Of a DNA stretch of 64,000 bases, positions 9,423 through 11,096 are shown piece by piece. Numbering within the stretch: position 1 is the first letter of the stretch; every line of letters begins with the position of its first letter. The position numbers were made by a program, and so were the translations under genes. The notes under the pieces were generated by a model. That model ran no database searches. It worked only from the letters and a program-made list of their open reading frames with translations, and was not told the DNA's origin. Source of the stretch: Aquisphaera giovannonii (lineage in GTDB: Bacteria; Planctomycetota; Planctomycetia; Isosphaerales; Isosphaeraceae); the NCBI RefSeq assembly GCF_008087625.1, contig NZ_CP042997.1, positions 10,292,001 through 10,356,000 of the forward strand. Reading direction: 5' to 3'.

Positions 9423-9577
9423 CGTGGGAGCCGGCTCCGCCCGGCGACCGGGCGAGCCTCCCGCACGCCGCACCGGCGACATCTTCGGGGACCGGCCGCG
9501 ACGGACTCGCCCCGTCCCTGGGGACCGCGGACGCGAGCCTCCGCTCGCCCGGTCGCCGGACGGAGCCGGCTCCCACG
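9423..9577 (+). mobile_element. MITE-like element with 34-bp terminal inverted repeats
   Basis: The two ends, 9423-9456 and 9544-9577, are reverse complements of each other except at one position (core GGGAGCCGGCTCCG then CCGGCGACCGGG). They enclose 87 bases. No protein is encoded beyond read-through of the host frame. Single copies of the same 34-mer occur elsewhere in the window, so this is a dispersed element rather than a chance hairpin. Confidence 0.7.
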
Positions 9578-9839
9578 TTCGGGCCGACCCCCACGTCGGG
9601 CATCGCCTACGGCACGGACTCTCTCGGCCTCGGCAAGGGCCACCCGGCGTCCGGGCAGGCCGCGACGTCGGGCAGCTCGGGGCCGATGCAGCAGGTCGGC
9701 AACAACGGATCGGCGAGGCACGCGGCCGCGGCGGCAGCCCAGGCGTCCGGATCGTCGCAGGCGAGCGCCGCGGCCTCGGCCGGCGCGCTGAGCGCGGCGT
9801 TCGGGCTGGGGCGGCCCAATACGGCCCCCGCCACGACCC

Positions 9840-9873
9840 CGTGGGAGCCGGCTCCGCCCGGCGACCGGGTGAG
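9840..9873 (+). repeat. Solo copy of the 34-bp dispersed repeat
   Basis: Same orientation as the left end at 9423; it differs at one base near its 3' end (GGGTGAG instead of GGGCGAG). It lies in the pseudogene. Confidence 0.8.
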
Positions 9874-9913
9874 CCTCGGCCCGACAGGCGACGGCGGGGG
9901 GAAGCCAAAGGGT

Positions 9914-9929
9914 TCATTCTGGTCTATGA
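9914..9929 (+). repeat. 16-bp direct repeat, left copy
   Basis: TCATTCTGGTCTATGA is found here and again at 10689-10704. The two copies bracket the group II intron relic. Confidence 0.8.
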
Positions 9930-10690
9930 GGGAAGCCAAAAGGCCGGGTCGCCCCGGGTGATTGCTCACCCGGGGCTCCCACAGATCCGGACGTGCGGAT
10001 TTCCCGCATCCGGCTCGTCATCCCAGGAGTCCGCGGCCTGCGCGGCCCGTCGTCGTTGCGTGGACATGGCCCCGGTCTCGGTGTACCGGTCCTGTTTCCC
10101 TCCGACGGGTCCCGAGATGGCGCCTCCTTCCCTCCACGGGGTCCCTCGGGCTGGTTCCCCCGCCTCGTCGGTACTATGAGGCGCTCCGACTCCCCGCCGC
10201 CCGTCTCGGCCCGCTTCGTTACCTTCGCGAGCCCGATACCATCGCTCCGCCCGTGATTCGCTCCCCTCGGCCGTGGGCGACCCGCCGGGGGCCTGGGAGT
10301 TTGGTCATCCGGCCTCCCGATCCGGAGCTCCGATGGAGACGTCGGGGCCTCCCAAGTTCCCGGGGAACCCTGATGGCCGTTGCCCGTGCTCTCCGACCCC
10401 GGCGGGACCGGGCGCGCCCTGCGGGACCAGGTGCGGCGACGCCCGGCGCGGCCCCCGCCCATGACCACGACGAGGGCTCCCCGCGCCTTCCATTTTCGGG
10501 GCTCAATCACACGACCTTCGGCCTGGCTGTCTACGCTTCGCAGGATGGGTCGCCCCATCGCCACGCAAGACTCGCTTCTGGCTGCTGGCCCTGCTCTGCC
10601 AGGCGGGATTGGTTACCCGCAGGGCTCCGACGAAAGGTTTCCGAGTTCGAGCTCATCCTCCTTTCCACAGGCTTCACTTGGCGCAAGGTC
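9930..10690 (-). ncRNA. Group II intron relic lacking its reverse transcriptase
   Basis: On the minus strand the stretch reads like a bacterial group II ribozyme. Near the 5' end (around 10685) is TTGCGCC, close to the GUGYG start. Domain I-like GAAAGGAGG and GGAAACC blocks follow. The sequence around 10161-10182 (CATAGTACCGACGAGGCGG) resembles the conserved stretch that usually precedes the intron-encoded protein. A domain V hairpin at 9984-10016 and a domain VI-like hairpin at about 9945-9983 close the element. Only about 50 bases separate a possible start codon at 10067 from domain V, so the maturase gene is missing. No coding function is claimed for the many short frames here. The exact ends are uncertain. 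Confidence 0.65.
9984..10016 (-). ncRNA. Group II intron domain V hairpin
   Basis: Read on the minus strand it starts GAGCCGGATGCGG, has a GAAA loop, and closes CCGCACGTCCGGATC. This matches the canonical domain V pattern, including the AGC catalytic triad and the bulge. It is followed at once by a perfect 10-bp stem (9952-9975) in the position of domain VI. Confidence 0.75.
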
Positions 10691-10704
10691 ATTCTGGTCT
10701 ATGA
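10689..10704 (+). repeat. 16-bp direct repeat, right copy
   Basis: Identical to 9914-9929. It lies just outside the predicted 5' end of the intron relic. Confidence 0.8.
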
Positions 10705-11096
10705 CCGATAGCCTGGCAATCTGGATAGCCCGCTGCTCATTTGAAGTCGAATGAGCATTGGAGACGGTCCCCCGAATAGGCAATTGCTCAAGCTTCCTCA
10801 GCCTCCACGCATGGGCCAGAATGACCCCTCCGGCGCCCCTCCCTGTCGGCGCCTGCTGACCCCTTCGGCGCCCCCGACGGCCGTGGAGGGAGCCGGGTAG
10901 CCCTTCACGAGTCGAGGGCGACGGGTGTGGAGAAGTCAGTCGATCCGCCGATCGGCTTCCCGGGATTCGGCCGGCCACACCGAAGGACGAAGCCGCCCGT
11001 GTCTTGTACCCGGAGCGGCGCCTCCGATAGAGTCGCTCCCGTCCTTGCCGCGCCTGGCGGCCTGGAATCCTGGACCGTTCACCGACAGAGAAGCCG
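10705..11096 (+). other. Non-coding leader before the esterase gene
   Basis: No gene was seen. It holds small hairpins, for example CTCATT and AATGAG flanking eight bases around 10737-10756, and an imperfect GTCGGCGCC / GGCGCC stem around 10840-10880. The last bases before the ATG at 11097 give only a weak ribosome site. Confidence 0.4.

Follow-up and report, generated by a model that had tools for sequence, protein, structure and literature searches.

Does a group II intron that lacks its reverse transcriptase (RT) gene, such as the one lying in the window (the whole 64,000-nt stretch of Aquisphaera giovannonii DNA that was analysed), represent a dead remnant or an element that moves with a maturase borrowed in trans? 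The initial annotation of the locus left both options open. Very probably, this intron (hereafter W) is a structurally intact RF02005-type intron deprived of its intron-encoded protein (IEP), its ORF-less form having spread by means of the IEP of a sibling acting in trans, and W and its closest copy (B) are hybrids of two kinds of intron.

W is an intergenic, 744-nt group II intron (window 10686..9943, minus strand) whose ends were fixed by aligning five copies. Its Rfam assignments come from cmscan of the window, and both matches exceed the gathering cut-offs; that to RF00029 (domains V and VI) covers 10018..9943 on the minus strand (45.5 bits, E 1e-5, gathering 40). The intron and its parts are as follows.

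9943..10686, minus strand: ORF-less group II intron W, 5' TTGCG ... 3' CCCGGC, delimited by the Rfam matches and by the alignment of five copies at unrelated sites
10387..10612, minus strand: domain I-IV core of W, RF02005 (group-II-D1D4-6), 100.3 bits, E 3.5e-27, gathering 49
10018..10184, minus strand: compact domain IV without ORF, in which DIVa and the basal stem are conserved according to RNAalifold and to covariation across W and 10 other ORF-less introns
10038..10067, minus strand: fossil start of an IEP (ATGTCCACGCAACGACGACGG...), homologous to that of the full-length copy F (alignment with F and N-terminal tblastn match)
9984..10016, minus strand: domain V, with catalytic AGC triad, GAAA loop and two-base bulge (RF00029)
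9946..9980, minus strand: domain VI, with a candidate branch-point A in GGGGCGACCC (RF00029 and alignment)

Most of what had been read from the letters of this locus holds. The domain V hairpin lies exactly where it had been placed (10016..9984), the domain VI-like stem is present beside it (9980..9946), and the sequence also has the pre-ORF stretch and a potential start codon (10067). The covariance models proposed as a check recognise both domains I-IV (RF02005) and domains V-VI (RF00029), the opposite of the outcomes by which the idea was to fail (a core matching no group II class, or a domain V scoring no better than shuffled sequence). The maturase gene is indeed absent, no RT frame being found in W between the would-be start codon and domain V, and the ORF relic in domain IV amounts to the first ~10 codons only.

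The host genome carries five copies of this intron, four of them ORF-less and all about 740 nt long (W, B, C and D) and one full-length (F). B (8.48 Mb) is 98.7% identical to W, while C (4.91 Mb) and D (0.29 Mb), about 96% identical to each other, are both 83% identical to W. W/B and C/D thus form two near-identical ORF-less pairs at unrelated loci, and within each pair the flanks differ, save about 10-25 nt of the 5' exon. The sequences through which W would recognise its target are the following.

10461..10466, minus strand: EBS1 of W (GGTCAT), pairing with IBS1 at 6/6 positions
10687..10692, minus strand: IBS1 of W (ATGACC), the last six bases of the 5' exon

This pairing is also 6/6 in C and D (EBS1 GGTCAG vs IBS1 CTGACC) and in F, and 5/6 in B. 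Other members of the intron family likewise carry their own matched EBS1/IBS1 pairs: across 62 introns, the pairing of each with its own exon averages 5.03/6 vs 2.52 after permutation, a value reached in 0 of 10000 permutations (EBS1 was located by regex; a few introns are mis-registered and five were dropped). Since near-identical ORF-less pairs occupy unrelated sites, with an EBS1-IBS1 match fitted to each, it was the ORF-less form itself that moved. The simplest account, and the most likely one from the sequences, is that the ORF-less RNA retrohomed by means of an IEP provided in trans, namely the maturase of F. In the particular case of W vs F, copying at the DNA level is possible, as the two have in common a 5' flank of ~140 bp made of a repeat element, beyond which their flanks differ. 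Some copies may be eroding, because B pairs at only 5/6 positions and C has a mismatch in domain VI.

F (6.99 Mb, 2,024 nt) encodes a TIGR04416/RVT_1/GIIM maturase. The full-length copy for which a search of the rest of the genome had been advised therefore exists, together with its IEP gene, but a single in-frame TAG, situated in the RT domain, interrupts this gene at a codon that is tryptophan in the relative from A. insulae. F provides the only match above the TIGR04416 cut-off in the host genome, in which the TIGR04416 search thus found no intact group II IEP. The remaining RVT_1/TIGR04416 matches were discarded as other maturases: they are retron-like, group-II-like or DGR-like RTs below the cut-off, or frameshifted fragments. 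A. insulae JC669 (G001), of the same genus, has an intact IEP of 502 aa that is 87.6% identical to that of F; between the two, dN is 0.06-0.07 and dS 0.27-0.45, and the resulting dN/dS of about 0.13-0.25 indicates that the IEP of F was under purifying selection. The TAG could be a sequencing error. As the sole maturase donor found in the host genome is broken by this codon, W is probably now stranded, and mobility has probably stopped in this strain, barring readthrough of the TAG or a sequencing error.

Several other RT loci were observed in the same genome. Two neighbouring fragments of a group II RT, each in its own frame (L186/L187, G000:C1:9584697-9585142), are probably a decayed second maturase gene. 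A group-II-like RT below the maturase cut-off lies in an open frame of 810-847 aa (L007/L182, G000:C1:834689-835552). A third locus (L010, G000:C1:9250842-9254348), comprising a 346-aa RT (YMDD) beside an FGE-type protein whose twin repeat is rich in asparagine (GGSWNNDPRNCRPANRNRNTPDNRNNNLGF vs GGSWCYDPWLCRPAYRLRDTPDNRSNALGF), resembles a diversity-generating retroelement.

W and B are mosaics, their domains I-III being of the F type and their domains IV-VI of the C/D type. Per 50-nt block, they are about 98-100% identical to F in domains I-III and 93-100% identical to C/D in domains IV-VI, and the identity between W and F drops to 67-76% over intron nt 551-700. A single breakpoint fits 157 of the 162 informative sites, which 0 of 10000 permutations achieve.

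10151..10178, minus strand: inferred recombination breakpoint (intron nt ~509-536), F type on its 5' side and C/D type on its 3' side

Because F and the A. insulae intron remain similar over their whole length, it is W and B that are the hybrids; these arose either by DNA recombination or by template switching.

The site occupied by W is itself part of a repeated element, as listed below.

10687..10826, minus strand: ~140-bp inverted-repeat (MITE-like) element, GGTCATTCTGG...CCAGAATGACC, forming the 5' exon of W, with the intron at its end
9914..9929, minus strand: another occurrence of the target end, TCATAGACCAGAATGA, shortly downstream of W (2 matches in the window, 0 expected)

F is also inserted at the end of a copy of this element; a third, empty copy (G000:C1:6987343-6987483) lies 3.5 kb from F, and a fourth match is partial. 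Insertion after a terminator or attC hairpin in the manner of IIC introns was rejected as a general rule, the 5' exons of 70 sites having a mean fold z of -0.4; those of G002c/d and D looked palindromic, and true palindromes are few among the 70 sites. The nearest solved relatives of the IEP (5hhj, 7uim, LtrA and GsI-IIC) score nearly equally. Close to W, a ~40-bp repeat rich in palindromes (ggctcacccggtcgccgggcggagccggctcccacgggg) recurs in the window at 9424-9890; it looks like a dispersed REP-like repeat, and a similar sequence is found near intron C.

DNA matches to the intron occur in 17 of 45 Isosphaeraceae genomes, and ORF-less copies in seven, each of a different genus (G000, G008, G018, G025, G030, G038 and G044), those of G030 and G038 retaining longer ORF remains than the other ORF-less introns. 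ORF-less status was called from the distance between domains I and V and the absence of an IEP, and the count is a lower bound, as draft assemblies break many copies at contig ends. The same Rfam family also has members with a missing or truncated ORF in Anaeromyxobacter, Sorangium, a Phycisphaerae MAG and other planctomycetes; most named relatives outside Isosphaeraceae whose 3' part is readable contain an ORF. In 11 ORF-less introns the compact domain IV adopts a common fold, in which 95.1% of cells are paired and 64 are doubly changed vs 23 in shuffled and 2-10 in slid controls. Given this strong covariation, the ORF-less introns look maintained. Their origin as a single clade was considered and rejected: the tree of domains I-III needs about 11 changes of status, at least 7 of which are forced by supported branches, implying repeated ORF loss and/or recombination. 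One deletion junction, compared by eye, is seemingly common to G018a, G025a/b, G044a and G008a.

Some of these genomes hold further peculiarities. In G002 (L086, C311), two RF02005-family introns in opposite orientation (85-306 and 761-982) share a 1-kb span at the start of a contig; further copies in G002, G016, G017, G019 and G043 are found at contig ends, which suggests that assembly masks a high copy number in these genomes. The nearly finished G037 (C1) has six group II introns, five of them of equal score, probably a recently proliferated family. In an ORF-less intron of G008 (L070, C109), part of the first ~110 nt seems to be inverted beside the rest, through rearrangement or misassembly.

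These observations bear on what else W could be. If W were a dead remnant, the first option of the initial annotation, it would be a fragment in decay, deprived of its ORF once inserted and competent for neither splicing nor mobility. This is rather unlikely: while the host's sole group II maturase gene is interrupted and an intergenic W need not splice, W scores as well as the full-length F on RF02005 (100.3 vs 100.2 bits), pairs perfectly with its own exon, shares its ORF-less domain IV with three copies at other sites (B, C and D), and is one of a group of introns whose domain IV covaries. For the RNA, a dead remnant is thus unsupported, all the more so with a 98.7% identical copy elsewhere, whereas the second option, a maturase borrowed in trans, gains support from ORF-less copies at several matched sites and from the full-length sibling. 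It is highly improbable that the ORF-less introns splice and persist as ribozymes independent of any IEP and spread passively, as splicing and persistence without an IEP are reported to occur for C. tetani C.te.I1: ten ORF-less introns from several genomes do hold 5/6 or 6/6 EBS1-IBS1 pairing and the host genome is without an intact IEP, but near-identical ORF-less copies at unrelated sites require mobility and hence reverse transcription, the DIVa region (which binds the IEP in other introns) is conserved, and ORF-containing relatives exist in the same genome or family.

Taken as a whole, the spread of an ORF-less intron served by a sibling's IEP can be pictured as follows. The IEP of W was lost through a deletion within domain IV. 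The ORF-less RNAs would have spliced and then reverse-spliced into new sites with their own EBS1 as guide and with an IEP provided in trans by a full-length sibling, either F or its ancestor. Recombination or a template switch would have placed the ORF-less 3' half behind the targeting half of F, and the insertion of W would have taken place at the end of an inverted-repeat element also used by F.

The ends of W (TTGCG...GC) depart from GUGYG...AY, which is a consensus with known exceptions and not a strict requirement. The 5' end first described as near-GUGYG reads TTGCG on the minus strand, the common state of a subfamily whose members start with T (TTGCG, TAGCG or TCGCG) and end with GC or GT. 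In the 49 introns for which both ends were read and curated by eye and hand, nt 1 and nt -2 are G1/A-2 in 27, T1/G-2 in 20 and T1/A-2 in two (L168, and L130 with its doubtful 5' end). The two positions therefore covary in 47/49 introns (Fisher p = 8e-12, uncorrected for relatedness); L235, with an ambiguous 5' end of which one reading gives a G1/G-2 exception, was excluded. The trees imply 4-5 changes of state. Of these switches, just 1-2 fall on well-supported branches, such as L219 vs L225 in the IEP tree (99/91), and no formal significance is therefore claimed beyond Fisher's test; where both positions differ, the direction is always concordant. The contact between the first and penultimate bases is established in group II splicing (PMC3669008), the CC end of RmInt1 is a noted deviation (PMC4238363) and plant introns rarely begin with UUGCG (PMC6867995). 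The present analysis adds the covariation: U1/G-2 vs G1/A-2 provides natural evidence for a contact known from biochemical experiments and could be tested by simple swaps.

A broader proposal can be made only tentatively, and it may well prove wrong: in Isosphaeraceae, the ORF-less half from domain IV to VI would be an exchangeable module placed behind varied domains I-III, giving new non-autonomous introns with new targets that parasitise a shared maturase across genera, and the first/penultimate contact would have switched from G-A to U-G several times. A family in which ORF-less introns are common, recombine and outlive the resident maturase is a natural case of dependence on shared trans-acting machinery, a step proposed for the origin of spliceosomal introns.

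According to Zimmerly and Semper (PMC4424553), bacterial ORF-less introns are rare and nearly always accompanied by related IEPs, a rule that W and its copies follow, except that their companion IEP is broken. Their closest precedent is the ORF-less TeI3 introns of Thermosynechococcus elongatus, which derive from one ORF deletion, are mobilised by driver IEPs and are inserted in repeat elements (PMC2882425). Both systems have an ORF deletion in domain IV that leaves a remnant (in W, the start fossil aligned with F), several ORF-less copies alongside ORF-containing siblings, ORF-less copies at unrelated sites with matching EBS/IBS (here W, B, C and D), insertion into repeat elements and an IEP acting in trans, the last probably so in the host genome. 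Unlike the driver IEPs of T. elongatus, which are intact and tested, the one resident IEP of the host is nonsense-interrupted; moreover, W and B are hybrids of two intron subfamilies, the ORF-less relatives span seven genera and the boundaries are TTGCG...GC. As the host genome is missing an intact related IEP, the W set may be said to work like, or descend from, the T. elongatus type rather than being a proven current member of it. Closer in sequence, the A. insulae intron (L064, RF02005, TIGR04416 IEP) matches the same domain I-IV model and is 88% identical to W in its 5' half; in contrast to W, it has an intact 502-aa IEP and a different sequence from domain IV to V. Finally, the group IIB intron UHB.I2 of Halorhodospira halochloris, with ends 5'-UUGCG..GU-3', has the same U1/G-2 combination as W; unlike W, it has an IEP ORF, lies after an attC site and was reported as a single deviation from the consensus (PMC7923331).
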